In this document: piece by piece, positions 6,126 to 43,906 of the stretch
Position numbering within the stretch: position 1 is the first letter of the stretch
Layout of the letters: every line of letters starts with the position of its first letter
Assembly (NCBI GenBank): GCA_949317995.1
Contig: OX439040.1
Coordinates: 28,560,030 to 28,624,029 of the forward strand
Direction: 5' to 3'
Origin: Acholoe squamosa
Taxonomy: Eukaryota; Annelida; Polychaeta; Phyllodocida; Polynoidae
Length of the DNA: 64,000 bases
Made by a program: the position numbers and the translations under genes
The notes under the pieces: model-generated
Told to the model about the DNA's origin: nothing
The model's database searches: none
The model's input: only the letters and a program-made list of their open reading frames with translations

Positions 6126-6692
6126 TTTGAATAGCTCTCTTCTCTTTAGTATCAAAGAAACAGTAGTTTGTCACACTTTTTCTTAAGTATTATGTCGTCA
6201 CACCCTATTCTTACAAAAACACCACACATAGTTTTCTATACTTCGATAAGATAGTACAAGTTTCTTGCCATTGTTTAGAATACATGTCATTTTAGGCAAG
6301 TTTCTATCAACGTCTTTTCCCGAAAACAATTTAGAAGTTACTTTCTTCGTGGTTAGTTCCTATAAGTGTTATTCTTCTCTTATATTCTCATCATCAATGT
6401 CCATTGATTAATGTTTATCATTTTACACCAGTTCATTTGTACTCTCGTTGTGATCGCGCTTGGGCGTCGACGAGTTTTTCATATCAATCAGTACAGGTAC
6501 ACTGCTATATATCACACGTCAGTCCTACATATGTTATATATATTTCTTTTTGTTTTTGTCTCTTTTTCCACGAGAATAAAGAGTTAGGCAGCTGGTGCCA
6601 ACGAAAGTTTTCTAGTAAAGTTTTTATCAACTTCTGTCTGTGATGCGGCTGTGCGCCACAGAACTTCACAGGGTGCAGCCAATCAGAACACT
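6126..6692 (-). other. 3' untranslated region of copy B (truncated)
   Basis: No gene. It matches the first part of the 3' UTR of copy C (21190-21755) and the reverse complement of copy D (41730-42300). The remaining UTR and the 3' LTR of copy B are missing. Confidence 0.65.
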
Positions 6693-8640
6693 TCATCCTT
6701 CCGTAATGTCATTGTAGATGTTTTCGTTCATCCGACCTGTCCCTACTTCAACGGGGACAGTGGCCGGAGGGGCGCTGGCGTCGGTTGTCCGTCTGTGCAT
6801 GCGTAGTGCCTGTCTGCCGAGGTCATCAAGCAATCGTTCGTCGGCTAGATCTCCCCCGATGCGGGTCCACCCGGCCTCAGCCAGTCTAGGCATGGAGAAT
6901 GGAACAGGTGTGGCTAATCCGCCAGTGAAGCGGAGGAGCCGAGTCATTGTCGATGACTTCCCTTCTCCTACGAGGGTGGCCGCCAGTCTTTTCGACACTT
7001 TCAGCGAGTTCGGGAGGGGGATAATCTTAGGCACTTGACCAGGGCGGGTTGCGGCTGCATAGATGCTCATGCCCCAGGTGATGCGGGCTCGTGCACTCAG
7101 GAACAGGTGATCGATTGATAGGTCTCTTATCAGTGCCTCTCCCTGGGTGTACAGATGGTCGAATGGCATAATCAGTTCACCCAGGAAGATGGTTTCCAGG
7201 ACCAACGGTGCCGAGAACTGTAGGTAGATCCCGTCCGGTGTAGACCTTCGAGCGGCCTGTCTTAGTCTCCACACTAGGTAGAGCGCGAACAGCATCACAA
7301 TCGTTAGCAGCAGGGCAAGGACGGCGGTAGGTGTCGAGCAAGCCAGCCGTTCGGTCGGGCACTCTGGTGGGGGGCCGTAGCACCTGATGGTTTGTGCTGT
7401 AGCAGCCAATGTCTGAGACGCCAGGGCTGACGTAGCTAGAGCACATCTGTGTCTCCAACAGAGAACAATCAGTGGGTTTGGTATGTAGTACCTTTGGCTT
7501 ATAGACAACGCGATAGCATTTGGTACGTTGCTGACCATCGCGCCATCTGCCTTCTGTCCTGCGACTCTGACTGGTACAGGGAATTTCAGGACCTGGACAG
7601 GTGTTCTTCCGAGACGACTGGAATGCGTAGGGTCACAACTATTGATGAGCCATCGCGAGTGCACTGAGGGCGAGCATTCTCATAGTAAAATGCTGGTGAT
7701 TTAAAGGCAGACCTGAACCTTGAGTATTTCTGCCTCAGGTATACGTCCGTCCGTCTCACAGCCTTTATTATGGCTTGAGGTGGAATAATCTTAGGTGATA
7801 GCCTATGACGTGTTAGCTGGTGTATTTCAGATGTAAAAGTCTCAAGGTGTCTTAAATTGTTCACGTAGTGTAATATCAGGCCTAGTTTTACCCTATTTAG
7901 GTAACCAAGGTATGTGAGATAGGCCCTGTTTGCTTCTATCCTTAGACGATTTCTGACAGAGCGTTTGCTAAGGTTCAACATTTTGAAGTTGGTAGAGTCA
8001 GCTACAGCTTTAAGTCCTGATAATTTGAGTTCTATACTTGTCAACATGACGTTTGTTTTCAGCACTAGGTCCTTTGTAATGTCAGTAAGTTCATTATGTG
8101 CTTCGGTCAGGACTTCTATATTTTTTGCATTGTATTCAATGTCCGAAGCGCGGCCGGTTCCGAACACATGATATCCAAATTCAGATATTAGATTTAGCAC
8201 AGGTATTCCTGCACGTATGGTGCGATTAAGTCCGTTGTTTTGAGGTACACTTTCCAATAGCTTAGCTATCATCTGATGACGTTCAATACGGAGCTTGGCA
8301 ATGAGCTCGTCCAGCCATTGTTCAAACACATAAATCTGATTGCACACTGCTTCATACTCTTCTGTTCCATTGCCTATTCTTACTTTTTCACGGTTGAGTC
8401 AACTTATGCACATGTTCGTGACGTTTACATCTTGGTTTAATCCAACATCAGGAGGGATAGTTACAGTCAGCTGTTGCACCACGTGGCTGGTGTCTGCTAT
8501 TGATATCACACTTCCGGGTTTAGGATGACCCCGAGCCTTTCCCTGTGTATAGTCTCTTGGGTAGTCAAGTGATGGAGCGTGTAAACTATCAGCAGTATTG
8601 TCAGGGTTGCAACTTGTGCAACAGGTATCCCGACAATCAT
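6693..8640 (-). pseudogene. env: Env-like glycoprotein, copy B (internally deleted)
   Basis: The start ATG at 8640 is followed by a hydrophobic N-terminal segment that could be a signal peptide. The reading then meets a stop near 8400 where copy D has an Arg codon (CGA to TGA), and a frameshift near 7600. About 220 codons are missing between the YYIPNP region and the IVLCWRH anchor, removing much of the ectodomain. Before the break lies a conserved ectodomain region with an R-T-I-R site followed by a hydrophobic segment and an FGT motif. I read this as similar in kind to baculovirus F/errantivirus Env fusion proteins. The second membrane segment and the long C-terminal domain are intact to the stop. 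Confidence 0.75.
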
Positions 8641-9180
8641 TTTGGTGTAGTGAATCGGGCGATGTTGCCCGTTTTAAAGTTTCCTAGATGTTGGCAGGGT
8701 GACTAGTATTTCTTTATAGTTTGTATATAGTTATCCAGGTGGCGTCTTGGTGACTGCCAGATTATAGCTCCCAGAATGCGCTGTAGGGGGCCCTGCTGGA
8801 GCAGTGGACGTTTAGTTCACCCGCTCACCACAGGGGCGCTAGGGTAGGCGCCGGCTCGTTGGTTTCACCACTACTGTGTAGATGGCGCCACCCGCTGGAG
8901 TAAGGTGATCAGCTCACTGGTAGCCTCACTGTAGCGTCTGGTAAGCATCTGGTCACTGTGTTCTATTTAAATTCGAGTCACTCAGGCCTACAAGAGATGA
9001 GAACATGGGTCCCTGTAGTATATACAATTGTAGCCAATTCCATGTGTTAGGGGAGGGGAAGGCCTCTAATTTAGCTCAGTTTTACATTTGCTATCAGGGT
9101 AATCAGTCATTAGAGTACATCACACCAGTTCAGACACGTAACCCTGTTTGGAGTTTTTAAGAGTTTTTGATTGCACGATC
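8641..9180. promoter_or_regulatory. Divergent spacer between env and the opposite-strand gene
   Basis: A 540-bp spacer: env reads leftward from 8640 and the opposite-strand gene rightward from 9181. On the plus strand TATTTAAA at 8964-8971 is a candidate TATA element, with TCACTCAGG just downstream. No ORF is convincing. In copy D the matching spacer is interrupted by a solo LTR at 39333-40204; copy B gives the empty site near 9015-9025. Confidence 0.45.
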
Positions 9181-10420
9181 ATGGAATATATTCCTTGCTC
9201 CATCGGCCAATCAGTCGTCCTAGTCAGACGAAAGTATTTTAAGCCAGGCATGGTGTATGTATTGGTTGGAGGGGAGGAGTTAGATGACCCGTCACAGGGT
9301 CAACCGTGCATGTTGGTGCAGGCTGGGCCGTATATGCCCCAGGAGCAATACCTGCGGAATCTACTGAGTGGATCATTATTGAGGGCGGGCGCAACACCCA
9401 GTCATCGGCAGACGGCTGTATTGTCTCTACAAGCAAGCGCCAATTCACAAAGTCATTGTCTTGTTCATGTGGTGCCGACCGCTCCTCCGATGATATCCCC
9501 CGTTGCGGTGCAGCGGCCCATGGGAGAAGGCGGGTCGGGCTGGCGGCGAGGCGGGCCGTATAACAGATTCGCGGCCGCTACTTCGCCGTCTCGATCCTCT
9601 ACGACGGTTGTCAATCCCACGGCTGCGCGAACCATTCTTCGAGACAACGTTGCAGCCGGAGCGGGACGCACTAGGTTACATAGTCCACGTCGGGAGTCGC
9701 TGTCCCCTGCTCTGTAAGGTGGTTCGGACTCTTCCGGCGTGCCAGCCGTCGCCGTCGTCAAGGACGCGTGCCGTCCCATCAGTTAAGACGTCCACCCCGG
9801 GTCTCACGATTCTTCGGTCCATCAGTACCGAGTTGGACAGTATGCCGCGGTCGTCGTCCGCCTCTCCGTCAAGGAGCTCGTCTCCTGTGCGGAGTTCTGA
9901 CGGCGGGGGGATGGTCAAGACATCCGGTCCCAGCGACTGCACGTCATCAGCCGCAGCCGGAACATCAGCTGCCGTAGGTTCGTCGTCAGACAGCGGTGGA
10001 CAGGCTCTAGGTTCGAACCCTTCGACTACCCCTGTCGGTAGTTCCACTGTAGGCCGCCAGGACAGCGGCAACTCTCCTCGTTCTGCCGCCTGTCCATCCG
10101 ACTCAGCGTCGACGGGCAGCAGGGACAGCATAGCCTCCAGCCGACCGCGTAGGGATAGCGCGACTTCCAGTCAGTCGGGAGGCGCCGGAAGTCCCGCAGC
10201 AATGTCGTCCATGTGGGCCACTGGAGCCTCGGCGTTGGAGGGACCGGTGCAGATACCGGCTGATGATCCTGATTTGGAGTTTGATCTCAGTATATTCCCA
10301 CCAGGCACGATTATAGACTGTGTCCCGTCCACGTCCACAGGGATCAGGTCTGGCAAGGCTCCGCATCGGCCGGACATACCTAAACCATCCGCTGATCCAT
10401 CGTTGTCAGACGATGAGTAA
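9181..10420 (+). pseudogene. Opposite-strand Ser/Arg-rich acidic-tail protein, copy B (frameshifted)
   Basis: This gene runs opposite to gag, pol, accessory genes and env of the same element. From the ATG at 9181 it encodes a compact N-terminal region of about 75 residues, then a long Ser/Pro/Arg-rich segment with SPSRSSSP-like repeats, and an acidic C-terminus with DDPDLEFDLSIFPPG and a terminal SDDE. A small deletion near 9717, relative to copy D, shifts the frame; the reading continues in the frame ending at 10420. The hydrophobic-acidic tail resembles acidic transactivation domains, and the SR-rich middle suggests nuclear localisation or phosphorylation. No family is recognised. Its 3' half overlaps an ORF on the other strand (10171-10464). 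Confidence 0.6.
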
Positions 10421-10464
10421 TGCCGTGAGGCAGTGGATGTCATATTGCAGCAGACGTTGCCCAT
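10171..10464 (-). CDS. MGNVCC-type small protein overlapping the opposite-strand gene, copy B
   Basis: A 97-residue ORF starting MGNVCCN, which fits the N-myristoylation pattern (Gly2, small residue at position 6) with adjacent cysteines suited to palmitoylation. The rest is Ser/Gly-rich and lies antisense to the C-terminus of the gene at 9181-10420. In this copy the same frame reopens after its stop (9676-10131) as another Asp/Glu-rich stretch. Coding on both strands cannot be separated from chance with two near-identical copies, so confidence is modest. Confidence 0.4.
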   Translation of the reverse strand: MGNVCCNMTSTASRHYSSSDNDGSADGLGMSGRCGALPDLIPVDVDGTQSIIVPGGNILRSNSKSGSSAGICTGPSNAEAPVAHMDDIAAGLPAPPD

Positions 10465-10712: not shown

Positions 10713-10919
10713 CTAATTCACACATGTCCCAACAGGGCGTGGCAGAGGGAGTGGTGGCGCCGGCAGAGGCCTATTATCATGCACATACTGCGGTCCCAGG
10801 TATACTTTGCGTAGGGGTCTCCTGGTAGTGGAGTACCTGGCGGACCGAGGGCTTAGTTCTACCTTGTGCATCTGTACGGCCGGGGGCGAGCGCGCCCTAG
10901 CTCCAAGACAGGCACCCAT
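10713..10919 (-). CDS. MGACLG-type acylated basic protein, copy B
   Basis: A 68-residue ORF from the ATG at 10919. The N-terminus MGACLGAR fits the N-myristoylation pattern, with Cys4 as a palmitoylation candidate. The body is basic (RSARYSTTRRPLRK) and the end is Pro/Leu-rich with PLPAPPLPLP, an SH3-ligand-like run. A dual-acylated peripheral membrane protein is the simplest reading. It lies 24 bases after the 140-residue ORF. No known family. Confidence 0.5.
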   Translation of the reverse strand: MGACLGARARSPPAVQMHKVELSPRSARYSTTRRPLRKVYLGPQYVHDNRPLPAPPLPLPRPVGTCVN

Positions 10920-11561: not shown

Positions 11562-11798
11562 CTAGGCACGTGCATTTCTCCTAGATGTGTGCTGGGCCTG
11601 GATGAATCTTGCTAGGAGTTCCTGTATTTCCTCAGGGGTGGGGTAATCCTCATCCCTGATATCGTCATATTCTTCATCAGATAAGTCTTCCATTATCTCC
11701 GCGGTAATTGGATCATTTTCGTAGGTGTAATCAAATGTGTCCAATGGCTCGCGTGTTGGCCGGCTGTCCTCATTCATCATGACAGTTTCAATATTCAA
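11562..11798 (-). CDS. Small acidic accessory protein, copy B
   Basis: A 78-codon frame matching copy D. The initiating ATG of copy D is TTG here (11796-11798); the first ATG codons are about six codons further in (the MMNEDS region), so translation would be slightly shorter unless TTG is used. The acidic middle (SDEEYDDIRDED) and the C-terminal helix ending ARA are kept. Confidence 0.5.
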   Translation of the reverse strand: MNIETVMMNEDSRPTREPLDTFDYTYENDPITAEIMEDLSDEEYDDIRDEDYPTPEEIQELLARFIQAQHTSRRNARA

Positions 11799-11823: not shown

Positions 11824-12063
11824 TTATTCCGTGACTAGATCAGCGTATCTGCTGCGCATCAAGGCAACGCGGTGTGCGGCGGTGCCGTAGTGGATTTTCA
11901 ATTTAATGGTAGAAGCATATGTTACATTGCATGTGTCACAGTGTGTACCTAGGTAGGGGTGGCATAACTGAAGGTGCCACACGACTTCCTGTCTAATATT
12001 AAATATGTCTCCACATACACTGCATATGTGTGAATGTCTCGTTGTGTTGACCGGCAGTGTCAT
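11824..12063 (-). CDS. Tandem C2H2 zinc-finger protein, copy B
   Basis: A 79-residue ORF with two C2H2 fingers, intact. Its ATG at 12063 shares a base with the stop of the upstream ORF (TAATG). Such overlap is known to support termination-reinitiation in some viral and retroelement mRNAs; here it is inferred. Confidence 0.65.
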   Translation of the reverse strand: MTLPVNTTRHSHICSVCGDIFNIRQEVVWHLQLCHPYLGTHCDTCNVTYASTIKLKIHYGTAAHRVALMRSRYADLVTE

Positions 12064-12599
12064 TATAAGTCATTGAGCGTGCCAGTTTTTTGCATTAAGA
12101 TTTTCTTAAGTATTTCTATTGTCCACATATCAGGGTAAGGTGGAGGTGAGGGTTCACCTAAGGGTCCTGCAACGTATAAGTACTTTTTGCCAATTTCCCT
12201 CTTCAAATTAAGTGTACTTTTTACTTTGTCCCCGAAGAGCTTTTCCAGGTTATGCAGATATCTTAATTCATATCTTTTAAGACACGTGCGACAATCTCTG
12301 CCTGGTTTCTCGTTGCTATGACAATAGAAACACAGATTGTCCTAGGGAAGGTGCGAAGTTAATTTTCCAACAGTGTAGGTGGCATGGTGCCGATTGACTA
12401 GAGTCTGTAGTGATGTAGGTAATTTGTAGATCCTCAGGTGAGATTTAGAAACAGCATCTACCGCCAAACCCAGTAAAGTGGCTTTAGTTTTATCAAAAGT
12501 TTCTATTTTATAATAGTAGTTTCCCCACCAAGAGTCGGTGGAGTAATCGCTGACACTTTCATCCAATATTCTCTTGCCGCTTCTTGTGTAGATGCTCAT
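12063..12599 (-). pseudogene. CxxC zinc-type accessory protein, copy B (nonsense)
   Basis: The frame starts at the ATG at 12599 and ends at 12063. It carries an in-frame TAG at 12342-12344 where copy D has a Trp codon. It includes five residues (AVSKS region) missing from copy D. Apart from the stop, the whole frame including the CxxC-x9-CxxC region is open. Confidence 0.65.
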
Positions 12600-12667
12600 A
12601 TCACAGTATAGTCACAATTTCTAAACTTACTTGAATAAATAATGCGTGCCAGGCACTAATGTTTTTG

Positions 12668-12838
12668 TTATCCTGGGTGAGTGTTAGATGCTCTCTGTAG
12701 TGGTATTATTTCCTCACGAGCGGCTTGTAACTGTTCAAAAGTGTGTCTGCAGCAGGCAAGCAGACATCCTAGAGTAAGGCCTCCAAAGATTGCAAATAAA
12801 ATACAATATTCCAGGTATGCAGAGCGTTCTGTCTGCAT
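12668..12838 (-). CDS. 56-residue single-pass membrane protein, copy B
   Basis: An intact ORF with one hydrophobic segment (residues about 11-30) containing FGGLTLG, followed by CC and a short charged tail with FEQLQAAREE. The same protein occurs in copies A, C and D. It is the first ORF after the internal promoter. A small viral-type membrane protein is likely; oligomerisation through the glycines is speculative. Confidence 0.6.
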   Translation of the reverse strand: MQTERSAYLEYCILFAIFGGLTLGCLLACCRHTFEQLQAAREEIIPLQRASNTHPG

Positions 12839-14455: not shown

Positions 14456-15289
14456 TTATATCACAATGAAATCACATTCATCGTCCTCCCCGTCTGTATC
14501 GGTCCAGTGCGTAGGGGGACGGGCTGCGGCCCTGGGGCGACTACTCCTCAGAGAAGGTTTCTTGCAGCTTTCCTGAGCCGGGGGCGTCGAGGAAGGGGTG
14601 CGGGCGTGTGCCGCTGATTGCTTCTTTTTAGTGGCGTCGTCACTGGCAGACCGTCTGTCCAGGCTAGCCTTTTCTTTACTTTTCTCATTCTTTCCCACCA
14701 AGCCTAGCGCCCGAAGCGCGTCAGCATTTTCTTTGTCATTTTTGCCCACCTTGCCTAGTGCCCGAAGCACGTCAGCGTCCTGATTCTTTGCTCCAGGAGG
14801 GTCCTCTTGTGTCAGGACCTTATTTTCTTCTATAGATTCTTCATGTATTTCATTTTCTTCTTCCATTTCTTCAGGAAATTCTTCATTTCTTTCTTCTTCA
14901 TAACTCTCGTTTTCTTCATCTACTTCTTCATCAGGATTTTCATTTTCTTCTTCATCTACATCGTCTTCCTCTGCTATCGCTGGTGCCCATGTCGTGTAAC
15001 ACCTTTTGAGTTTTTGTATGTTCACGAAGTGTGGTATTTTAACACCAGTTGCTACAGATGCCACACGCACTAGGTGGTCATCCTTCACCTCTTCTATGCG
15101 GTAGGGCCCTTTGTAGCGGTCCGAGAATTTCGCGACTCGGTTTGCAGAACACATAGGGTCATACACATAGACGAGATCTCCTTCATTGAAGTCTACAGGT
15201 CGTTTTCCTGTGTCCAATCTTTTTCTAAGATTTTCCTCATATTCGTCTGTGTATGTTTTAGCCAGTTTCTTGAATTGTTCTATGTTGCC
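14456..15289 (-). pseudogene. pol: Integrase C-terminal domain and acidic tail, copy B
   Basis: This is the C-terminal part of Pol, cut from the rest by the solo LTR at 15290-16204. It holds a GPY/F module (YKGPYRI) typical of gypsy-type integrases, then a long Glu/Asp-rich tail, two 14-residue repeats (DADVLRALGKVGKN and NADALRALGLVGKN), a Lys/Ser/Arg-rich segment and a terminal acidic-hydrophobic DDECDFIVI. The acidic tail produces mirror-image Phe-rich frames on the other strand, which are not genes. Confidence 0.75.
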
Positions 15290-16204
15290 TGAACGAATGT
15301 AGGTTGAGGGAGCTAGCTCAATGTAATCTTGGGGAGATGTGTTTGAGTCTGTCTAGAGAACTAGTGGTAGAGGAAGGGCAGAGGGGAGTTCATCTCCCAA
15401 TGACCTTACAACACTCGAAGCCGTCATAAAGTTCATTGCTTTATTACAGTAGATATTCTCCAAGTCCATTCTTACAAATGATAAAGCAAATGATTATAAG
15501 TCCAATAATAAAGTGTCAATCCCAATTGTCAATATACATGTGAATATAAGATCTCCAAGGTTACAACAGTGGGTTAAGGTCTCCTTGAAGTACTAACAAA
15601 ATACGAAAAACTCCATGAAAGATGCTGGAGCTAAGCCCCAAGGTGTGCTGCAGCCAGATAGAATAATCCAAAGTATACACTTACACAGTCCAATCCTGTG
15701 CTTCCCAGAAGTATAGTAGGTAGTCCTCACAGCGAAGAGCACTTGTATCTCTTCTTGGCTCAGACCAGCTCTCCAGCTTTTATACTAATTTCACAGCCAT
15801 GACCCTAGGATCCGACCCTGACCTTGTTTTCTTACTAGCTAGGTCAAGGAAGGCCCGTCAAAGGTGAAGGTCACTAAAGGTGAGGGTTGACCAGAGGCCA
15901 ATGTCTTCTGTGGCTAGAGGTCACACTTGTCCAATCAAGGTGTTTTCCCTTCCAGTCCAAGTGCATGACCCAGCTCAGCTCAGCCCAAAGGTCAAGGCCA
16001 TCAGTGGCAAGAAGTCACACCCGTCCAATGGGATGGCCTGGTTATGCCAGTCCCAGGTCAAGGTGCTTTCCCTTCAATGCCAAGGCCAAGGACCTTCAAG
16101 GCCAATGCCAATGCCAAGGATCCCTGCTCCCGAGGTGCCCCATACCTTGTTTAATACCTAAGTACAGTCTATCTCCTGTCTCATATCTAAGTGGCTTCAG
16201 CACA
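15290..16204 (-). mobile_element. Solo LTR-2 inserted in copy B integrase
   Basis: A complete 915-bp LTR, TGTGCTGAAG to CGTTCA on the minus strand, of the sister subfamily to LTR-1. It has TATAAAAG near 15778, a GTGTAAGTG donor-like site and terminal homology with LTR-1. Copy C gives the empty site. The flanks carry an imperfect duplication: GTCC on one side and TGCC, with one base lost, on the other. The insertion splits pol. Confidence 0.8.
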
Positions 16205-17947
16205 GTCCTTTGTTCTTAGGAACCATTCTGATTCTGAGAGAGTTGTAGGCGTTGGTCGGTTGTCAGGTAGTCCCATGGCTTTTGTGTCACGTCCAAACAA
16301 CAGTGTGTAGGGGGAAAATCCCGTTCTACCACTGATAGTGGATCGGATCGTCCATAGGGCTATTGGGACTAAATCTGGCCACATGTCATGTCCATCATCG
16401 ATGTAGCATGCGATAATGTTTTCGAGGCTTTTGTGCATCCTCTCAACTCTCGCATTCCCGGTAGGCATTCTCGCACTTGTCATGCTGTGGCGACAATTAA
16501 GTCTAGTTGTTATTTCATGGAAGATTTTTGATATGAAAGTCAGGCCTCTGTCCAAGTGTATGCGTTCCACTTTTCCATATCTGCATATGATGTTCTTCAG
16601 AAACAGGTCTGCTCCTGTTGCTGCTGTCGAATCTTCTGTGCAAAATGCTTCTGGGTATCCTGTCAGCAAATCCACAAATGTCATTATATATTTTGACTTG
16701 TCTGCTGCTGGTTTCAACGGTCCTACGAAGTCCACTTGTACTTGCTGCCACGGGTAATCCGGTGTATCCCAGCTTTTGGCAGCTGCTTTGAAGTGAGGAG
16801 CTCTTTTTCTCAGAGCACAGGTTTCACATTTCCTGACATATTCTGCAATGTCCTCGTGTAGGTTCTTCCAGTAGTACTTGGACGTCACTTTGCTGCATAG
16901 AGCAGCTGTGCCTACATGTCCGCCAGTTATTATATCGTCATGTAGAATCTTCAGTACCCTTTGCTGTAATTCCTTTGGCACGACGATTTTGCCACTCACC
17001 CCAGTGAATTGTCCTCTTTTCTTTCTACGTGGAGCTGAGAATTTTACCAAGAGTCCTGGTTCTATCATTCCCATGAATTCTGATTTAATCATGACAGCTT
17101 TGGCTTCTTCCCAATCATCTGGGAATACTTCGTCTTCCAGGTATTCAATCATCTGATTGCAGGTTGGATCGTCGCGCTGAGCTCTCATCATTCTCTCAGT
17201 GCTTATCTCCTGGTTGGGTTCAATGTTGAATATTTCACATCCCACGTCTGGTTCGAATTCCTCCTCGTCACTGTTTTCCTCTTCTTCTTGTACACGAGAC
17301 AGATAGTCTGGTAGGTAATGAGTAGCTCCTGGTTCATATGTTATTTCCAGATCAAAGTCCGATAATGATAACGCCCATCTTTTCAGACGTTTCGAGGGCG
17401 CCTTGTGAGCTTGCATCAGTAATGATACTAATGGCTTGTGGTCTGTTACCACAGTCACTTTTCCTCCTTGCAACATATCTTCATATGTTTTCAGTGCTTT
17501 TACTACGGCCAGGGCTTCCTTTTCAGTCACAGTGTAGTTGAGTTCTGCTCCATTCATTGTGTACCCAAAGTACAGGATAGGTCTGTATAGATCGTCGATT
17601 TTGTGGCAGATTGCAGCGCCACAAGCACGATCTGATGCATCTGTTAGCACTATGAAATGTCCACCTATCTCTGGGTGTATCAGCAATGGTGGTGAAGTCA
17701 GTTTTGTCTGGATCTCCTGGAATGATGCTTCACACTTGTCAGTCCATTCAAACGTTGCATATTTTTGTAGCAACTTGTTCAGAGGAACAGCTGCCTTGGC
17801 GAATCCCGGGATGAAGGAACAGTAGTAATTGCACAGTCCCAGGAACGATTTGACAGCTTTCACATTCTTTGGTCTTTTCACTGCCTTGACCTTTTTAATG
17901 ATCCTGGGTTGGGTTTCAAGACCTTCCTTGCTGATAATATGTCCCAA
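16205..17947 (-). pseudogene. pol: Pol: RNase H and integrase core, copy B
   Basis: This open segment carries the RNase H region (LTDASD, then an EKEALA helix and TDHKPL) and the integrase with its HHCC zinc domain (H, H, CETC) and D,D-35-E core. The core residues seen are VDFVGP, the Asp of HLDRG and the Glu of ARVER. It is continuous with the tail at 14456-15289 apart from the inserted LTR. The upstream RT part is in another frame (17948-19374). Confidence 0.8.
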
Positions 17948-19374
17948 GTAGTTGATTCTGTCTTTACACCAATCGCATTTTTCGGGCTTGATTTTTAAGT
18001 CCGCTTTGGCTAGTGCTTTCAGAACAAGTTGAACATTTTCAGGTGATCCTCAAATGTCTGGTCGTAGATGTCTGTAGGTGTTTCGAATGCCGTGAACTGT
18101 CTTGAATCCTTGTCTATCTCAACTTGATGGTATCCACTGAGAAGATCGAGTGCTGTGAACATAGTGGGTTTCTTGTATGCCATGAAGAGGAATAGAGATC
18201 TTGCTGTAGGCATGGGGAACTTGTCCTTGTACGTGATGGAATTAAGCCATCTGTAGTCTGTGCAGAGCCTGGGTTTTCCATTCTTTTTATAAGCCACTAC
18301 AAGAGGGCTTCGCCATGCTGATTCACTTGGTTCTATCACTCCTATGTCCAGAAGCTTTTTCACTTGCTCATCTATTACTTCTATTTTCTGTGGTGAGTAT
18401 CTGTAGGGTCTTGTGCAGGCTATTCCTTTAGATTCATCCACTCTAATTTTCATTGCTGAAATTTTGCAATGACCGAGCTCAGACATGTCAAATGCAAGAC
18501 TGTCTTGATTGTCCATTAGCATCTTTATGAATTCTTCCTTTTGTGTTTCATCCAGACAAGATTCACTTAGGTCGATCTGTTTTATCTTTTCTTCCTTTGG
18601 TGTTGTTTTCCTTCGTTTTTCAAACTGGTCAGCTGTCAATGATTTTACAAAATCTATTGCCATTTGACACACTTCGGCTGGTATTCCCATTTTCTGTTGA
18701 TGGTCTACTCTAAGGAAATCTGTTAGATCTTCAGGGTCCAGTCCAGGTGCTTCACCTTTACTGGCATATGCTAGGACATCATTCTTTCCCAGAATGATAG
18801 GTTTATCTGAGCAATTCATGATTTTTATCCACCAAGTTTTTCCTAGTTGGTTGACACTGCTTTCTACACATAGTGGTGATGGTTCACAGAGTACTGTATC
18901 TCCTTGTTCTCCTTGTACCTGTCTCCATGGTGAGACTGATATAATTTTCTCCTGCATAGGGAGCAATTTCTCGTTTTCTGTGCTTGATATTGGATTACCT
19001 TTGAAGATTTCCACTTTTCTGTCTCCCATTTTCATATCTGCTTGAAGTGCTTCTAGTAGATTCCTACCAATCATCACATCGTGGCAAAGATTTTCCATGA
19101 CATGGAAGTTGAAATATAGTCGTGCTCCTTCCACCATGAATTTTAATCTTGCAGTTTCTGAAATAATTTTGCTGTTACCATCTGCCATATTTACCTTCAG
19201 ATTTGCATCAAAAGTTTCTACTATGCATTCTTCTGGTAGTGATTGTTTGTACCTTTTTGAGATGAAACAGTCACTGGCTCCTGTGTCGAGAAATGCTGAT
19301 TTCTCTTTTCCACATAAGTTGATGGTTAGAAATAATGGTTCACTGCTTAGTTTGTCATTAGCTGATCCGCCCAT
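17948..19374 (-). pseudogene. pol: Pol: protease and RT N-part, copy B (RT active site deleted)
   Basis: Protease (FLDTGASDC) and the first half of RT (palm motif ALDLLSGYHQ) are present. Near 18066 about 130 bases found in copy C (28470-28600) are missing. This removes the YLDD catalytic motif, and a nearby 1-base loss adds a frameshift. The ATG at 19374 lies directly at the LTR end: PBS and gag are absent from this copy. Confidence 0.8.
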
Positions 19375-23630: not shown

Positions 23631-23665
23631 TGTTCAAACACGATTCGAGTCACTCAGGCTTGAAT
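23615..23665 (-). other. Patchwork deletion junction in copy C
   Basis: Within about 50 bases, copy C joins short blocks that in copy B lie near 7860, 8300-8330, 8970-8985 and 12630. Accessory genes, the opposite-strand gene and the env start are lost between them. Block order follows the element, as expected from serial template switching in reverse transcription or repair. Confidence 0.6.
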
Positions 23666-31949: not shown

Positions 31950-32843
31950 TGAACGGTAGTTGGTGAAGGGGTGTGGATGAAGGTTTTGTGGAAGGAAAGA
32001 TATTTGTAGGTTGTTGTGGGTTAGCTAGCTCAAATGGTTTGATTGTTGTGATGCTTGTTTGCTGGTTGCTATGGTATTAATTCAGGGGTTTAATTCGTTG
32101 TTCTAAAGAAAGTGGTAGAGGAAGGGCAAGAAGGCGTTTATCTCTCCATGACCTTACAACACTCGCAGTCCGCCGATTTAAGTTCCAATATTTATTGTAA
32201 TTTCCACTTCAAATCACAGAAGTCTTGTTCACAGGTAGTTGGTTCAATTGAGCAAGGATGGTAATAGTCACAAGTACAGAGTAGAGTTCCAATCTAACTG
32301 GTCACAAGTACAACTCCAATATGATGAGTATAAACCAACCCTAGGTGTATGCTGCAGCAAGATGACTAAGTCCAAAGGTTAATACTTACACAGTCCAACC
32401 CTGTGTATCCCAGCAGTAAGTATGGTCAGTCCTCACAGGAAGAGCATTACATTCTATCTCCTGCCTGCTTGGTCAGCTCGTCTGCTTATATACAACTCAG
32501 ACGCCTCCAACCACCAGTCCCGTGGCCTTAAAAGGCCACTTCCTGTGGAGCCTTCCCACAGTTCTTTGCACCCTTCCCACAAAGTATTGCAACAGGAACT
32601 GCAGCACTTCTAGACCAATCAGAAGGCAGCTTTTCAGCTGCATGATGGGAATGTTTACAATCAGGGTGCACTGTGGGAAGGTTTGCTCGCAGAGGCTGCT
32701 GGGAAGGGGATCCCTATGCCTTGTCTGGAGTATAGGTGGCTGGAGTAACTATGTTTCATGCAGAGACTAGGTGTCTGCTGCAGAGTTGGAGTAAACGTGT
32801 TTTGACTCGATGTTTTGACTTGATTTAAAGTGGCTACAGCACA
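31950..32843 (-). repeat. LTR-1, 5' LTR of copy C
   Basis: An 894-bp LTR, TGTGCTG at 32843 to TTCA at 31950 on the minus strand. The other flank goes directly into pol of inverted copy D with no host sequence between, so C and D are joined head to head by rearrangement. Confidence 0.85.
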
Positions 32844-35521: not shown

Positions 35522-35692
35522 ATGCAGACAGAACGCTCTGCATACCTGGAATATTGTAATTTATTTGCAATTTTTGGAGGCCTTACTCTAGGATGTCTGC
35601 TTGCCTGCTGCAGACACACTTTTGAACAGTTACAAGCCGCTCGTGAGGAAATAATACCGCTACATAGAGCATCTAACACTCACCCAGGATAA
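35522..35692 (+). CDS. 56-residue single-pass membrane protein, copy D
   Basis: An intact first ORF of the accessory cassette. One membrane segment with FGGLTLG, then LLACC and a charged tail. One Ile-to-Asn change in the hydrophobic segment (YCNLF) relative to copies A-C may weaken it. A conserved GTAAGT donor-like site lies 37 bases after the stop (35730), before the next ATG, suggesting alternative splicing of cassette mRNAs. Confidence 0.6.
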   Translation: MQTERSAYLEYCNLFAIFGGLTLGCLLACCRHTFEQLQAAREEIIPLHRASNTHPG

Positions 35693-35759: not shown

Positions 35760-36281
35760 ATGAGCATCTACACAAGAAGCGGCAAGAGAATATTGGATGA
35801 AAGTGTCAGCGATTACTCCACCGACTCTTGGTGGGGAAACTACTATTATAAAATAGAAACTTTTGATAAAACTAAAGCCACTTTACTGGGTTTGGCGGTA
35901 GATCACCTGAGGATCTACAAATTACCTACATCACTACAGACTCTAGTCAATCGGCACCATGCCACCTACACTGTTGGAAAATTAACTTCGCACCTTCCCT
36001 GGGACAATCTGTGTTTCTATTGTCATAGCAACGAGAAACCAGGCAGAGATTGTCGCACGTGTCTTAAAAGATATGAATTAAGATATCTGCATAACCTGGA
36101 AAAGCTCTTCGGGGACAAAGTAAAAAGTACACTTAATTTGAAGAGGGAAATTGGCAAAAAGTACTTATACATTGCAGGACCCTTAGGTGAACCCTCACCT
36201 CCACCTTACCCTGATATGTGGACAATAGAAATACTTAAGAAAATCTTAATGCAAAAAACTGGCACGCTCAATGACTTATAA
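35760..36281 (+). CDS. CxxC zinc-type accessory protein, copy D
   Basis: An intact 173-residue ORF. The N-terminus is polar with Ser/Tyr/Trp (SDYSTDSWWGNYYYK). The middle is helical, and residues about 85-105 hold CFYC-x9-CRTC, a likely zinc site. A conserved PLGEPSPPPYPDMW segment follows, then a basic C-terminus. PPPYP resembles a PPxY WW-domain ligand, which in retroviruses can recruit Nedd4-type ligases, but that role is not shown here. The stop overlaps the next ATG (TAATG). Copies A and B are broken. Confidence 0.65.
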   Translation: MSIYTRSGKRILDESVSDYSTDSWWGNYYYKIETFDKTKATLLGLAVDHLRIYKLPTSLQTLVNRHHATYTVGKLTSHLPWDNLCFYCHSNEKPGRDCRTCLKRYELRYLHNLEKLFGDKVKSTLNLKREIGKKYLYIAGPLGEPSPPPYPDMWTIEILKKILMQKTGTLNDL

Positions 36282-36520
36282 TGACACCGCCGGTCAACAC
36301 AACGAGACATTCACACATATGCAGTGTATGTGGAGACATATTTAATATCAGACAGGAAGTCGTGTGGCACCTTCAGTTATGCCACCCCTACCTAGGTACA
36401 CACTGTGACACATGCAATGTAACATATGCTTCTACCATTAAATTGAAAATCCACTACGGCACCGCCGCACACCGCGTTGCCTTGATGCGCAGCAGATACG
36501 CCGATCTAGTCACGGAATAA
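36281..36520 (+). CDS. Tandem C2H2 zinc-finger protein, copy D
   Basis: An intact 79-residue ORF. Fingers: CSVC-x12-H-x4-H and CDTC-x12-H-x5-H. The C-terminal tail is basic then acidic. Its start overlaps the upstream stop by one base, pointing to coupled translation from one mRNA. It is conserved in three copies, the strongest of the regulator candidates. Confidence 0.7.
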   Translation: MTPPVNTTRHSHICSVCGDIFNIRQEVVWHLQLCHPYLGTHCDTCNVTYASTIKLKIHYGTAAHRVALMRSRYADLVTE

Positions 36521-36545: not shown

Positions 36546-36782
36546 ATGAGTATTGAAACTATCATGATGAATGAGGACAGCCGGCCAACACGCGAGCCAT
36601 TGGACACATTTGATTACACCTACGAAAATGATCCAATTACCGCGGAGATAATGGAAGACTTATCTGATGAAGAATATGACGATATCAGGGACGAGGATTA
36701 CCCCACCCCTGAGGAAATACAGGAACTCCTAGCAAGATTCATCCAGGCCCAGCGCACATCTAGGAGAAATGCACGTGCCTAG
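36546..36782 (+). CDS. Small acidic accessory protein, copy D
   Basis: An intact 78-residue ORF from the ATG at 36546, 25 bases after the zinc-finger ORF. Very acidic middle, C-terminal amphipathic helix and basic end (SRRNARA). Copy A keeps the same pattern with substitutions and a four-residue loss. No known family. Confidence 0.6.
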   Translation: MSIETIMMNEDSRPTREPLDTFDYTYENDPITAEIMEDLSDEEYDDIRDEDYPTPEEIQELLARFIQAQRTSRRNARA

Positions 36783-36977: not shown

Positions 36978-37400
36978 ATGGCTGCTACATTGGGCACTGC
37001 TGAACCATGTGCACATGCAGCAGGGATTCACATTTATGATATCGACAGTTGTTTGAGTATTTGCTATATTCCTGTGATAACAAGGGAATCCTTTTTCGCT
37101 GTGCGAAATGGACAATGTAAAACAGCTGGTATTTATTTCAATGTGTTTCCCCTTGACTCTGTAGATCGCACCATCATCACCATCCCATTCTACTTCGGGA
37201 GACTGGACAACGTGACAAGGATGTATTCATTAACCAATTTGTGCTGCTGCCCTACCTGCGTAAATAAGACAGCATCAGAGGCAAGTCATAAAGGCTGGGA
37301 CAGAGTAGCTGCAATAAAAGATAAATACGTCACCAACGCCCTCGTCCTTCCCTCCCCCTTCAGTTCATCGGAAGTAGGAGCAAGTAGCGCACTCCAATAA
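36978..37400 (+). CDS. 140-residue Cys-containing accessory protein, copy D
   Basis: An intact ORF of the same length as in copy B. Conserved features are the N-terminal AATLGTAEPCAHAAG segment, mixed hydrophobic strands, LCCCPTC and a Ser-rich tail. No domain is recognised. It lies between the micropeptide and the acylated ORF in a compact tandem array. Confidence 0.6.
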   Translation: MAATLGTAEPCAHAAGIHIYDIDSCLSICYIPVITRESFFAVRNGQCKTAGIYFNVFPLDSVDRTIITIPFYFGRLDNVTRMYSLTNLCCCPTCVNKTASEASHKGWDRVAAIKDKYVTNALVLPSPFSSSEVGASSALQ

Positions 37401-37424: not shown

Positions 37425-37631
37425 ATGGGTGCCTGTCTTGGAGCTAGGGCGCGCCCGCCCCCAGCCGTACAGATGCACAAGGTAGAACTAAGCCCTCGGT
37501 CCGCCAGGTACTCCACTACCAGGAGACCCCTACGCAAAGTATACCTGGGACCGCAGTATGTGCATGATAATAGGCCTCTGCCGGCGCCACCACTCCCTCT
37601 GCCACACCCTGTTGGGACATGTGTGAATTAG
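37425..37631 (+). CDS. MGACLG-type acylated basic protein, copy D
   Basis: A 68-residue ORF starting 24 bases after the 140-residue ORF. MGACLGAR fits N-myristoylation plus palmitoylation. The basic body and Pro-rich end match copy B almost completely. A role at the inner membrane leaflet is inferred from the N-terminus alone. Confidence 0.5.
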   Translation: MGACLGARARPPPAVQMHKVELSPRSARYSTTRRPLRKVYLGPQYVHDNRPLPAPPLPLPHPVGTCVN

Positions 37632-37733: not shown

Positions 37734-37879
37734 GGGGATATATTGCTCATTGCGTAGTACATCAGGATCTACTCACTATACACCTTCACTGAGCCCAATA
37801 GACCTGAATAACCCCGCCAGCACCCAGCAGATGGAGGCACTGACAGAGAGGTATACTGTGTCCAGCCCTAACTGTGGAA

Positions 37880-38242
37880 ATGGGCAACGTCTGCTGCAAT
37901 ATGACATCCACTGCCTCATGGCATTACTCATCGTCTGACAACGATGGATCAGCGGATGGTTTAGGTATGTCCGGCCGATGCGGAGCCTTGCCAGACCTGA
38001 TCCCTGTGGATGTGGACGGGGCACAGTCTATTATCGTGCCTGGTGGGAATATACTGAGATCAAACTCCAAATCAGGATCATCAGCCGGTATCTGCACCGG
38101 TCCCTCCAACGCCGAGGCTCCAGTGGCCACACATGGACGACATTGCTGCGGGACTTCCGGCGCCTCCCGACCGACTAGAAGTCGCGCTATCCCTACGCAG
38201 TCGGCTGGAGGCTATGCTGTCCCTGCCGCCTGTCGACACTAA
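37880..38242 (+). CDS. MGNVCC-type small protein, copy D
   Basis: A 120-codon ORF starting MGNVCCNMTSTAS, matching copy B for about 85 residues before an indel changes the C-terminus. A myristoylation/palmitoylation N-terminus is likely. The first dozen codons lie outside the opposite-strand gene and the remainder overlaps it. Confidence 0.4.
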   Translation: MGNVCCNMTSTASWHYSSSDNDGSADGLGMSGRCGALPDLIPVDVDGAQSIIVPGGNILRSNSKSGSSAGICTGPSNAEAPVATHGRHCCGTSGASRPTRSRAIPTQSAGGYAVPAACRH

Positions 38243-39163
38243 GTCGGACGGACAGGCAGCAGAATGAGGAGAGTTGCCGCTGGCCTGGCGGCCTACAGTG
38301 GAACAACCGACAGGGGTGGTCCAAGGGTTTGAACCTAGAGCCTGTCCACCGCTGTCTGACGACGATCCTACGGCGGCTGATGATGTGCTGTCGCTGGGAC
38401 CGGATGTCTTGACCATCCCCCCGCCATCAGAACTCCGCGCAGGAGACGAGCTCCTCGACGGAGAGGCAGACGACGACCGCGGCATACTGTCCAACTCGGT
38501 ACTGATGGACCGAAGAATCGTCAGACCCAGGGTGGACGTCTTAACTAATGGGATGGCACGCGTCCTTGGCGACGGCGACGGCTGGCGCACCGGAAGAGTC
38601 CGAACCACCTTACTCACTGCGACAACCCGCGGAGCAGGGGACGGCGACTCCCGACGTGGACTATGTAACCTAGTGCGTCCCGCTCCGGCTGCAACGTTGT
38701 CTCGAAGAATGGTTCGCACAGCCGTGGGATTGACAACCGTCGTAGAGGATCCAGACGGCGAAGTAGCGGCCGGAAATCTGTTATACGGCGCGCCTCGCCA
38801 CCAGCCCGACCCGCCTTCTCCCATGGGCTGCTGCACCGCAACGGGCGACATCATCGGAGGAGCAGTCGGCACCGCATGAACAGGACGATGACTTTGTGGA
38901 ATGGCGCCAGCTTGTAGAGACAATACAGCATTCTGCCGATGACTGGGTGTCGCGCCCACCCTCAATAATGATCCGCTCAGTAGATTCCGCAGGTATTGCT
39001 CCTGGGGCATATACAGCCCAGCCTGCACCAACATACACCGTTGACCCTGTGACGGGTCATCTAACTCCTCCCCTCTAACCAATACGTACACCATGCCTGG
39101 CTTAAAATACTTTCGTCTGACTAGGACGACTGATTGGCCGATGGAGCAAGGAATATATTCCAT
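37924..39163 (-). pseudogene. Opposite-strand Ser/Arg-rich acidic-tail protein, copy D
   Basis: Counterpart of 9181-10420. The frame is open from the ATG at 39163 to near 38130, further than in copy B before the first lesion. A frameshift there displaces the C-terminal acidic segment, which continues in another frame to 37924. The N-terminal 75 residues, the Ser/Arg-rich middle and the DDPDLEFDLSIF tail are the same. The two copies carry different lesions, so both derive from one open ancestor. Confidence 0.6.
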
Positions 39164-39332: not shown

Positions 39333-40204
39333 TGTGCTGTAGCCACTTTAAATCAAGTCAAAAACATCGAGTCAAAACATCGAATCAAAACATCCCAACT
39401 CTGCAACAGACGCCTAGTCTCTGCATTAAACATAGTTACTCCAGCCACCTATACTCCAGACAAGGCATAGGGATCCCCTTCCCAGCAGCCTCTGCGAGTA
39501 TACCTTCCCACAGTGCACCCTGATTGTAAACATTCCCGTCATACAGCTGAAAAGCTGCGTTCTGATTGGTCTAGAAGTGCTGCAGTTCCTGTTGCAATAC
39601 TTTGTGGGAAGGGTGCAAAGAACTGTGGGAAGGCTCCACAGGAAGTGGCCTTTTAAGGCCACGGGACTGGTGGTTGGAGGCGTCTGAGTTGTATATAAGC
39701 AGATGAGCTGACCAAACAGGCAGGAGATAGAATGTAGTGCTCTTCCTGTGAGGACTGACCATACTTACTGCTGGGATACACAGGGTTGGACTGTGTAAGT
39801 ATTAACCTTTGGACTTAGTCATGTTGCTGCAGCACACACCTGGGGTTGGTTCATACTCATCATATTGGAGTTGTACTTGTGACCAGTTAGATTGGAACTC
39901 TACTTTGTATTTGTGACTATTACCATCCTTGCTCAATTGAACCTACAATCCCACGGCTGTGCGAACCACCTGTGAACAAGACTTCTGTGATTTGAAGTGG
40001 ATATTACAATAAATATTGGAACTTTAATCGGCGGATTGCGAGAGTTGTAAGGTCATGGAGAGATGAATGCCTCCTTGACCTTCCTCTACCACTTTCTTTA
40101 GAACAACGAATTAAACCCTTGAATTAATACCATAGTAACCAGCAAACAAGCATCACAACCATCAAACCATTTGAGCTAGCTACCCGTTCACCTACTACCG
40201 TTCA
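39333..40204 (+). mobile_element. Solo LTR-1 inserted in copy D
   Basis: An 872-bp LTR, TGTGCTG to CGTTCA. The flanks carry CAGG on both sides, present once at the matching place in copy B (ACTACAGGGACC, reverse strand near 9020). This empty-site comparison fixes both LTR ends and the 4-bp target duplication of this family. Confidence 0.9.
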
Positions 40205-40579: not shown

Positions 40580-41729
40580 ATGATTGTCGGGATATCTGTT
40601 GCACAAGTTGCAACCCTGACAATACTGCTGATAGGTTACACGCTCCATCACGTGACTACCCAAGAGACTATACACAGGGAAAAGCTTGGGGTCGTCCTAA
40701 AACCCAGACGTGTGATATCAATAGCAGACACCAGCCACGTGGTGCAACAGCTGACTGTCACCATCCCTCCTGATGTTGGATTAAACCAAGATGTAAACGT
40801 CACGAACATGTGCATAAATCGACTCAACCGTGAAAAAGTAAGAATAGGCAATGGAACAGAAGAGTATGAAGCAGTGTGCAATCAGATTTATGTGTTTGAA
40901 CAATGGCTGGATGAGCTCATTGCCAAGCTCTGTATTGAACGTCATCAGATGATAGCTAAGCTATTGGAAAGTGTACCTCAAGACAACGGACTTAATCGCA
41001 CCATACGTGCAGGAATACCTGTGCTAAATCTAATATCTGAATTTGGATATCATGTGTTCGGAACCGGCCGTGCTTCGGACATTGAATACAATGCAAAAAA
41101 TATAGAAATCCTGACCGAAGCACATAATGAACTTACTGACATTACAAAGGACCTAGTGCTGACCGAAGCACATAATGAACTTACTGACATTACAAAGGAC
41201 CTAGTTCTCGGCACCGTTGGTCCTGGAAACCATCTTCCTGGGTGAACTGACTATGCCATTCGACCATCTGTACAACCAGGGAGAGGCACTGATAAGAGAC
41301 CTATCAATCGATCACCTGTTCCTGAGTGCACGAGCCCGCATCACCTGGGGCATGAGCGTCTATGCAGCCGCAACCCGCCCTGGTCAAGTGCCTAAGATTA
41401 TCCCCCTCCCGAACTCGCTGAAAGTGTCGAAAAGACTGGCGGCCACCCTCGTAGGAGAAGGGAAGTCATCGACAATGACTCGGCTCCTTCGCTTCACTGG
41501 CGGATTAGCCACACCTGTTCCATTCTCCATGCCTAGACTGGCTGAGGCCGGGTGGACCCGCATCGGGGGAGATCTAGCCGACGAACGATTGCTTGATGAC
41601 CTCGGCAGACAGGCACTACGCATGCACAGACGGACAACCGACGCCAGCGCCCCTCCGGCCGCTGTCCCCGTTGAAGTAGGGACAGGTCGGACGAACGAAA
41701 ACATCTACAATGACATTACGGAAGGATGA
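40580..41729 (+). pseudogene. env: Env-like glycoprotein, copy D (large internal deletion)
   Basis: The N-terminal part (40580 to about 41210) is the best-preserved env start in the window. It has a hydrophobic signal-like segment, Asn-glycosylation sequons (NVT, NGT, NRT), an R-T-I-R site and a following hydrophobic region with FGT. About 51 bases are tandemly duplicated at about 41105-41205. The frame then jumps to the C-terminal domain, losing most of the ectodomain and both membrane segments. The C-terminal domain (41217-41729) is open in another frame. Confidence 0.75.
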
Positions 41730-43039
41730 AGTGTTCTGATTGGCTGCACCTCGTGAAGTTCTGTGGCGCACGGCCACATCACAGACAGAAGTTGATAAAA
41801 ACTTTACCAGAAAACTTTCGTTGGCACCAGCTGCCTAACTCTTTATTCTCGTGGAAAAAGAGACAAAAACAAAAAGAAATATATATAAAACATATGTAGG
41901 ACTGACGTGTGATATATAGCAGTATACCTGTACTGATTGATATGAAAAACTCGTCGACGCCCAAGCGCGATCACAGCGAGAGGACAAATGAACTGGTGTA
42001 AAATGATAAACATTGATCAACGGACATTGATTATGAAATTATGAGAGAAGAATAACACTTATAGGAACTAACCACGAATAAAGTAACTTCTAAATTGTTT
42101 TCGGGAAAAGACGTTGATAGAAACTTGCCCAAAATGACATGTATTCTAAACAATGGCAAGAAACTTGTACTATCTTATCGAAGTATAGATAACTGTGAGC
42201 GGTGTTTTGTAAGAATAGGGTTTGAAGACCTAATACTTAGAAAAAGTGTGACAAACTACTGTTTCTTTGATACCAAAGAGAAGAGAGATATTCAAAATTG
42301 TCCCCCCCACTGATCTCTGGGACGTCTGTTTCATTCGTGATTATTCACTGCCGCCCATATACTACCACTAAGGCCGACGTGCCAATCTTCTTGTCTTGTG
42401 TTCTTTTTCCATTCATGATCATTTGGCCTTTTCTGGCTGATCCCCAGCCCATTCTGCGCTCCATCAATGACGCACGGGCAAATCCTTCAAATTCCAATTC
42501 CAATTCTTTTTTACCTGCTACGTGGAGCGTTTGGGCATTTTGCACATCTATGCTTCTGTCCTCAGACGGACAACCCTCATGACTCCGCATTAGCGACCAT
42601 CAGATCATCATCTCATGGAATATGCATACTACTTACCTCCGACTTGAACTTGCTTACAGTTATAAGTCGATTATGAAATCTCTGTAGATGTCTTCCATGT
42701 CCAGTTATGGAATAACGTGATCTCTCTCTCTCTCCAATTGTCACACACGAAGTCGTGATTTGATAAGTTACCATAATAAAATGAGCATGTACGACTCTAC
42801 GACCTCAAAATTGAACAAGGGGTAGTTGTCGAAACCGGGTAACAATTCACACTATTTTATGTAGAAACCTGACATAACCAGTTTATGATGAAAATACCTC
42901 AGGTTTAAGATGAAAATACTGCAGATATAATCAAATGTAACCAAAAACAGCATGTTTGTGTTAGAAACAAAATATAAGTATTCATACTTTTCGAAGTAAA
43001 GAAATTGCTTCTCAATTTCTTTAAATAACCGCCCGCGGG
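41730..43039 (+). other. 3' untranslated region of copy D
   Basis: About 1.3 kb, homologous to 20251-21755. It ends in CCGCCCGCGGG directly before the LTR. A (TC)n run lies near 42720-42735. No convincing gene. Confidence 0.55.
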
Positions 43040-43906
43040 TGTGCTGTAGCCACTTTAAATCAAGTCAAAACATCGAGTCAAAACACGTTTATCCCAACTC
43101 TGCAGCAGACGCCTAGTCTCTGCATGAAACATAGTTACTCCAGCCACCTATACTCCAGACAAGGCATAGGGATCCCCTTCCCAGCAGCCTCTGCGAGTAA
43201 ACCTTCCCACAGTGCACCCTGATTGTAAACATTCCCATCATGCAGCTGAAAAGCTGCGTTCTGATTGGTCTAGAAGTGCTGCAGTTCCTGTTGCAATACT
43301 TTGTGGGAAGGGTGCAAAGAACTGTGGGAAGGCTCCACAGGAAGTGGCCTTTTAAGGCCACGGGACTGGTGGTTGGAGGCGTCTGAGTTGTATATAAGCA
43401 GATGAGCTGACCAAACAGGCAGGAGATAGAATGTAATGCTCTTCCTGTGAGGACTGACCATACTTACTGCTGGGATACACAGGGTTGGACTGTGTAAGTA
43501 TTAACCTTTGGACTTAGTCATGTTGCTGCAGCACACACCTAGGGTTGGTTCATGCTCATCATATTGGAGTTGTACTTGTGACCACTTAGATTGGAACTCT
43601 ACTTTGTACTTGTGATTATCACCATCCTTGCTCAATTGAACCAACTACCTGCGAGCAAGACTTCTGTGACTTGAAGTGGATATTACAATAAATATTGGAA
43701 CTTTAATCGGCGGATTGCGAGTGTTGTAAGGTCATGGAGAGATGAACGCCTTCTTGCCCTTCCTCTACCACTTCCTTTAGAACAACGAATTAAACCCCTG
43801 AATTAATAAAATAGTAACCAGCAAACAAGCATCACAACAATCAAACCATTTGAGCTAGCTACCCTTCCACAGACATCCACAACATCCGTTCACCTACTAC
43901 CGTTCA
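43040..43906 (+). repeat. LTR-1, 3' LTR of copy D
   Basis: An 867-bp LTR. TATATAAG is at 43391-43398, a GTAAGT donor at 43494 and AATAAA at 43687-43692. TGTGGGAA-type sites are at 43204-43211 (reverse), 43302-43309 and 43323-43330, all within 190 bases upstream of the TATA box, with a CAGCTG E-box and an ATTGG (CCAAT) element between them. Confidence 0.85.
43204..43330. promoter_or_regulatory. Cluster of CSL/Su(H)-type TGTGGGAA sites in LTR-1
   Basis: Three exact TGTGGGAA octamers occur in 127 bases. (C/T)GTGGGAA is the established recognition sequence of CSL (RBPJ/Suppressor of Hairless), the DNA-binding partner of Notch. The sites recur in the other LTR-1 copies, and one recurs in the internal promoter of copies B and D. 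Confidence 0.5.

Follow-up and report, generated by a model that had tools for sequence, protein, structure and literature searches.

Could an element of the Ty3 lineage carry the gene organisation of a complex retrovirus? Ty3 elements with an F-type env are already known, and the question is raised here by the multi-gene cassette between pol and env in a family of long terminal repeat (LTR) elements of the annelid Acholoe squamosa. The window analysed is a stretch of 64,000 nucleotides (assembly GCA_949317995.1, contig OX439040.1, positions 28,560,030 to 28,624,029), in which related Ty3-type copies are clustered according to self-BLAST, Pfam scans and lists of open reading frames (ORFs). We consider that these copies probably belong to an endogenous retrovirus-like family of the Ty3 lineage, with an env of the class I fusion type and the organisation of a complex retrovirus. 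One splice-type junction together with four ORFs under selection, all seen in genomic DNA, suggests that the family would work like a complex retrovirus while standing outside Retroviridae.

Four copies are distinguished, namely A (plus strand, 1-5274), B (minus strand, 19376-6120), C (plus strand, 32846-43906) and D (minus strand, 32843-19377). Copy D contains a 5' LTR, gag, protease-reverse transcriptase (RT), RNase H-integrase, a 56-amino-acid (aa) membrane ORF and env, while copy B lacks gag but contains pol, the complete cassette and an env with a broken frame. Copy C retains a scrap of pol and the complete cassette, along with a solo LTR, a damaged env and a 3' LTR, and copy A is an older two-piece set, whose env and own 3' LTR are nested inside the cassette of a copy of the same subfamily. 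Read from the sequence, the order between the LTRs is gag-pol-cassette-env.

29950..31911, minus strand: gag of copy D, 653 aa (Pfam Retrotrans_gag, E=5.6e-7)
26656..29938, minus strand: pol of copy D, two overlapping ORFs (Pfam RVP, RVT_1, RT_RNaseH, Integrase_H2C2, rve)
14456..19374, minus strand: pol of copy B, split at 15290-16205 by the insertion of a related-family LTR (self-BLAST, Pfam, ORF list)
43..1830, plus strand: env portion of the older copy A, in several broken ORFs
3914..5179, plus strand: A-type cassette (membrane 3914-4069, CxxC 4191-4694, C2H2 4691-4930, acidic 4955-5179)

The gag product scores 30.1 bits against Retrotrans_gag (cut-off 24.1), which identifies it as Ty3-type gag, and 17.9 bits against Ty3_capsid, under the cut-off of 29.1. 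The pol order protease-RT-RNase H-integrase is that of Ty3/gypsy (Metaviridae), and Pfam sees only RT_RNaseH-type domains in pol, that is, no second RNase H. These domains, with an env after the cassette, bear out an earlier sequence-only reading, which had described an env-bearing Ty3-type family; the two full-cassette copies of that reading (B and D in its naming) are, by content, B and C here. Its estimate of about 5.8 kb between integrase and env was also accurate, since the pol stop and the env ATG lie 5,816 bp apart in B and 6,682 bp apart in C, where a solo LTR flanked on either side by CAGG accounts for 872 bp. The beginning of this interval (B 14456-13134, from the pol stop to the first candidate acceptor) is about 1.3 kb with few ORFs, is common to B, C and D, and could hold RNA signals.

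All nine cassette ORFs of the earlier description are present across B and C.

12668..12838, minus strand: 56-aa membrane protein, copy B (ORF list)
35522..35692, plus strand: 56-aa membrane protein, copy C (ORF list)
23697..23867, minus strand: 56-aa membrane protein, copy D (ORF list)
12060..12599, minus strand: CxxC protein region, copy B, broken by a stop (ORF list)
35760..36281, plus strand: CxxC protein, copy C, 173 aa, with CFYC..CRTC and PPPY
11824..12063, minus strand: C2H2 protein, copy B (ORF list)
36281..36520, plus strand: C2H2 protein, copy C, 79 aa, two classical fingers
11562..11780, minus strand: acidic protein, copy B, 72 aa (ORF list)
36546..36782, plus strand: acidic protein, copy C, 78 aa
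11474..11536, minus strand: micropeptide MAEGPAMPIIVIVIESDDEE, copy B, 20 aa
36808..36870, plus strand: micropeptide, copy C, 20 aa
10944..11366, minus strand: 140-aa protein (p140), copy B (ORF list)
36978..37400, plus strand: 140-aa protein, copy C (ORF list)
10713..10919, minus strand: MGACLG protein, copy B, 68 aa (ORF list)
37425..37631, plus strand: MGACLG protein, copy C (ORF list)
10171..10464, minus strand: MGNVCC protein, copy B, 97 aa (ORF list)
37880..38242, plus strand: MGNVCC ORF, copy C, 120 aa (ORF list)
9181..10420, plus strand: antisense ORF, copy B, broken into 178-aa and 192-aa pieces (ORF list)
38081..39163, minus strand: antisense ORF, copy C, 360 aa (ORF list)

The membrane, CxxC, C2H2 and acidic ORFs recur in unchanged order in the older copy A, so that the cassette is a feature of the family and not one chance capture, as had been proposed. 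Only B and C contain the 140-aa, MGACLG, MGNVCC and antisense ORFs, and copy D carries no more than the beginning of the block.

Are these ORFs genes, or could the block be mostly dead sequence from nested insertions, with chance or remnant small ORFs and with D as the compact ancestor? The window is indeed full of nested LTRs and broken copies, and in the GC-rich third of the block B and C differ by insertions and deletions, with no frame standing out. At the DNA level, A and C share 75-83% identity across the four ORFs that they have in common, which makes A a fair test of selection. The ratio of nonsynonymous to synonymous substitution rates (dN/dS) between A and C is 0.26 for the membrane ORF, 0.21 for CxxC, 0.09 for C2H2 and 0.21 for the acidic ORF, and both shifted frames give higher values than the true frame in each case. 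In 2000 random redistributions of the substitutions among like bases, the number of synonymous changes equalled or exceeded the real one in 16 shuffles for the membrane ORF, none for CxxC, none for C2H2 and 1 for the acidic ORF, the observed number being above the shuffled mean in all four. These comparisons indicate that the four ORFs are under frame-specific purifying selection, and neutral evolution, which the sequence-only reading had named as fatal to its proposal, fails for four of the nine ORFs (dN/dS 0.09-0.26). For the 140-aa, MGACLG, MGNVCC and antisense ORFs, dN/dS is 0.64-0.87, with little power because only B and C, 95-99% identical, can be compared. Since selection on the four ORFs is strong between copies 17-25% apart, and since the ends of the stretch missing in D match the best donor and the best acceptor (see below), dead sequence is refuted for the first four ORFs and is quite unlikely as an account of the block.

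The second line of evidence is the junction in copy D.

12625..12635, minus strand: splice donor TTCAA/GTAAGT, copy B (rank 1 of 372 GT)
4118-4128 in copy A and 35724-35734 in copy C: the same donor TTCAA/GTAAGT
8982..9010, minus strand: splice acceptor TTCTCATCTCTTGTAG/GCCTG, copy B (rank 1 of 537 AG); in copy C after 40233
23655..23664, minus strand: junction TTCAA/GCCTG in copy D, of exon-exon type, the 3.64-kb GT-AG stretch of B and C being missing

Splice sites were scored with a simple matrix of our own, built on consensus values. The donor, which sits just 3' of the membrane ORF in A, B and C, is the best of 372 GT in the 8.5 kb of B, and the acceptor, which precedes env in B and C as TTCTCATCTCTTGTAG/GCCTGAGTGACTC, is the best of 537 AG; in C they are again first, of 376 GT and 520 AG, respectively. 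Copy D reads TTCAA/GCCTGAGTGACTCGAAT, where 3,643 bases are gone to the base (one base being ambiguous), which brings the membrane-protein exon directly up to the env leader. The missing stretch spans the CxxC, C2H2, acidic, micropeptide, 140-aa, MGACLG, MGNVCC and antisense ORFs. As the ends of the deletion are the best donor and the best acceptor, the simplest cause would be that D is a retrocopy, that is, a reverse-transcribed and integrated spliced RNA. The deleted stretch has the form of a GT-AG intron, and therefore most of the accessory ORFs would be intron-borne; D keeps gag and pol, and therefore splicing of its template RNA would have been confined to the 3' part.

Could the conserved ORFs then belong together in a larger spliced protein, or in two, for example as extra exons of env or of a post-pol polyprotein? 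The membrane ORF does lie in the exon that D joins to the env leader, and MGNVCC contains a candidate donor. However, in both A and C the four tested ORFs all begin with an ATG and end with a stop of their own, the CxxC stop overlaps the C2H2 start in both copies, and such stop-start overlaps suggest separate translation, which makes larger spliced proteins an unlikely explanation.

The LTRs supply the remaining expression signals.

31950..32843, minus strand: 5' LTR of copy D (TGTGCTG...CGTTCA), followed by the primer-site-like stretch TGGTGGAGAA; boundaries read from the sequence
19377..20250, minus strand: LTR between D and B, CTAT directly after
39333..40204, plus strand: solo LTR within the intron of C, CAGG on both sides
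43040..43906, plus strand: 3' LTR of C (self-BLAST)
3156..3842, plus strand: 3' LTR of A, lying within the cassette of a different A-type copy

The solo LTR of C has the TGTG..TTCA termini and the 4-bp duplication (CAGG/CAGG) of Ty3/gypsy LTRs; no target duplication was found at the outer flanks of D (ATGG/CTAT). All six LTRs examined (five of the main family, A included, and the related-family LTR inserted in B) have a TATA box, GTAAGT 99-103 bases downstream and then AATAAA, and therefore the major splice donor is likely to be in the transcribed part of the LTR. This donor falls under the threshold of the donor scan because its exon side is weak. The acceptor ranked second in B (10980) and in C is found about 60 nt upstream of MGACLG. 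In addition, TATAAATA occurs upstream of MGNVCC in B (about 10618) and C as a possible inner promoter. The related-family LTR in the pol of B (15290-16205) starts with TGTGCTGAAGCC, ends with TTCGTTCA and has the same TATA and GTAAGT layout; a partial copy at 5283-5707 adjoins the cassette of A. At 5704-6125, a half LTR (U3-R part, plus strand) lies head to head with the 3' part of B, so that no own 3' LTR of B is seen there.

What kind of protein does env encode?

21756..23630, minus strand: env of D, 624 aa, truncated at its N-terminus, with the C-terminal domain at 21756-22313 (18 relatives, E 6e-23 to 8e-151)
6693..8640, minus strand: env of copy B, frame-broken (ORF list)
40580..41729, plus strand: env of C, internally deleted and frame-broken (ORF list)

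Env behaves like the four selected cassette ORFs: between A and D, one aligned piece differs by 25 changes at first, 7 at second and 139 at third codon positions, and dN/dS in the tail piece is 0.12. Relatives of env fall into clusters holding up to 1,058 sequences. R-x-x-R and two C-terminal transmembrane (TM) segments are found in all eight longer relatives and an N-terminal hydrophobic stretch in five of them, and a structure search with a model of one relative, P0124, returned F proteins in all 50 fold rows shown. Of eight relatives scanned, P0124 alone matches PF12259 (Baculo_F; E 0.0014, 17.8 bits), under the cut-off of 24.1. The window's own N-terminal env piece has no PDB match by sequence. 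With, in its relatives, a furin-like site, a fusion-peptide-like stretch and a TM anchor and, on the model of P0124, an F fold, env has the marks of a class I F-type fusion glycoprotein and looks like a paramyxovirus-F-like fusogen. No earlier description was found of the conserved extra domain 3' of its membrane anchor, which may, as a weak suggestion, be matrix-like. In env 21756-22313 and the relatives P0124-P0138, both TM segments are followed by basic residues, so that one uncleaved chain cannot satisfy the positive-inside rule. A Yxx[L/V/I] motif lies near the end in D and in five of the eight relatives, and the env of C has a perfect 48-bp tandem duplication (41111-41205).

Could the cassette instead have been taken over whole from some DNA or RNA virus and drive another life cycle, making a hybrid virus? 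Its dense, overlapping small genes look virus-like, and the only notable matches in Pfam, PHROGs, NCBIfam and PDB are generic zinc-finger ones for the C2H2 protein (two classical fingers; ZNF568 in PDB, E 2e-4). The other cassette proteins have no convincing match in these four scans, the acidic protein having none in Pfam. However, no viral homologue was found in PHROGs for the nine ORFs, in viral_contigs for CxxC, C2H2 or p140, or in phage records for p140, and no replication or capsid gene is recognised in the block, so that capture from such a virus is very improbable. The lack of CxxC, C2H2 and p140 homologues in viral_contigs, and of any CxxC homologue among 693 scored candidates of 5.8 billion proteins, also counts against a complex retrovirus-like family, as do several points on the copies themselves: the CxxC ORF of B carries a stop, the micropeptide of A is a remnant with similar residues out of frame with the first ATG, purifying selection covers four of nine cassette ORFs, D shows two more deletions in env that lack GT-AG ends, and the proposed splicing stands on one junction in one copy. 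For env, the P0124 model is of low confidence (mean predicted local distance difference test score 61, predicted template modelling score 0.33), and the window env pieces have no Baculo_F match in Pfam at E up to 10. We still hold a complex-retrovirus organisation within Ty3 to be probable.

As for its placement, 248 proteins of 7,771 candidates matched pol; among the 120 of these that were listed, those with names are annotated as pol of LTR elements or as hypothetical proteins. An RT tree was built from 35 pieces (37 rows chosen, comprising 35 of the 120 listed and two from the window, with P0013 and P0015 dropped as short). The RT of the present family groups with 15 sequences at 100/100 support on a long branch, which is separate from the rows of sea cucumber, spider, crab, fish and plants as well as from a second Ty3 element of the window; in this comparison, which held no named errantivirus and no retroviral pol, it is placed in a separate Ty3 clade. 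The element resembles errantiviruses and envelope-carrying gypsy elements (Metaviridae) in its Ty3-type pol order, TG..CA LTRs, 4-bp duplication at one solo LTR and apparently F-type class I env after pol, but differs in the 5.8-kb nine-ORF cassette before env, the cassette-spanning intron, and the two TM segments and conserved extra C-terminal domain of env. Complex retroviruses, above all foamy viruses, are alike in the several small extra genes with alternative splicing, the probable donor in the transcribed LTR part and a possible inner promoter, and unlike in that here pol is Ty3-type, the cassette precedes env and no homologous proteins were found. The antisense gene HBZ of human T-cell leukaemia virus lies upstream of the 3' LTR, as does the opposite-strand ORF here, which by contrast is broken in B and only putatively expressed. 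In bdelloid rotifers, PMC5408684 describes extra ORF3s of LTR elements encoding a GDSL esterase, a DEDDy exonuclease and env-like proteins, with a paramyxovirus-F-like env in the TelKA clade; these too are extra genes in LTR elements, whereas here there are many small proteins of no recognised family plus env. Membership of Troyka, characterised by CG..CG termini and a 3-bp target duplication (PMC12440569), is rejected on the TG..CA termini and 4-bp duplication. No spliced multi-gene accessory block in a Ty3 element was found among the listed titles and openings of abstracts, a search that did not cover Chary and Hayashi 2025.

How might the element work? Full-length RNA would give Gag-Pol, and RNA spliced at the mapped junction would give env, with the membrane ORF upstream. 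Transcripts retaining the intron would yield the CxxC, C2H2 and acidic proteins by reinitiation from overlapping or close ORFs, the LTR donor would join to cassette acceptors, and other acceptors, such as B 10980, might serve MGACLG. The C2H2 and acidic proteins could act in the nucleus, tuning LTR transcription or RNA export. The CxxC protein might recruit NEDD4-type ligases through PPPY, a motif kept in A and C, while the Gag of D has no PPxY or P[ST]AP motif. The N-termini of MGACLG and MGNVCC are presumably of the myristoylated kind, and these and the membrane protein would act at membranes; together with PPPY, the membrane-type proteins may affect release or host surface proteins. The micropeptide MAEGPAMPIIVIVIESDDEE resembles a SUMO-interacting motif and could be such a motif in bare form.

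Elsewhere in the window, a second, unrelated Ty3 element (44410-55915) has its pol at 49313-52108 (Pfam), terminal repeats of 96% identity at about 45955-46321 and 55545-55915 (self-BLAST), and a 509-aa ORF without Pfam family upstream of pol (46347-47876); no env was seen in its ORF list. A 545-aa minus-strand ORF at 56185-57822 has Cys/His-rich and low-complexity parts and no Pfam family at its cut-off. Tandem arrays lie at 58759-59277 (46-bp units) and 60848-61374 (86-bp units, with a 257-bp higher-order period).

Accessory and regulatory genes are usually regarded as a mark of some vertebrate retroviruses. If the present reading is true, a selected, intron-borne cassette in a Ty3 element would be complexity that arose separately, and would serve as an external reference when asking what host pressures give rise to accessory complexity. 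A bolder version, which we put forward only as a doubtful possibility, is a Ty3-lineage virus with an independent, full complex-retrovirus programme (LTR donor, intron-borne regulatory and membrane accessory proteins of zinc-finger, acidic, PPPY, SUMO-motif and myristoylated types, possibly an antisense gene and inner promoter) and an env-tail matrix domain from a negative-strand RNA virus. The env family with its conserved post-anchor domain would be a second feature without a description found. Copy D suggests that spliced RNA was packaged and copied, so that the genomic copies of this family may be readable as a record of its splicing.

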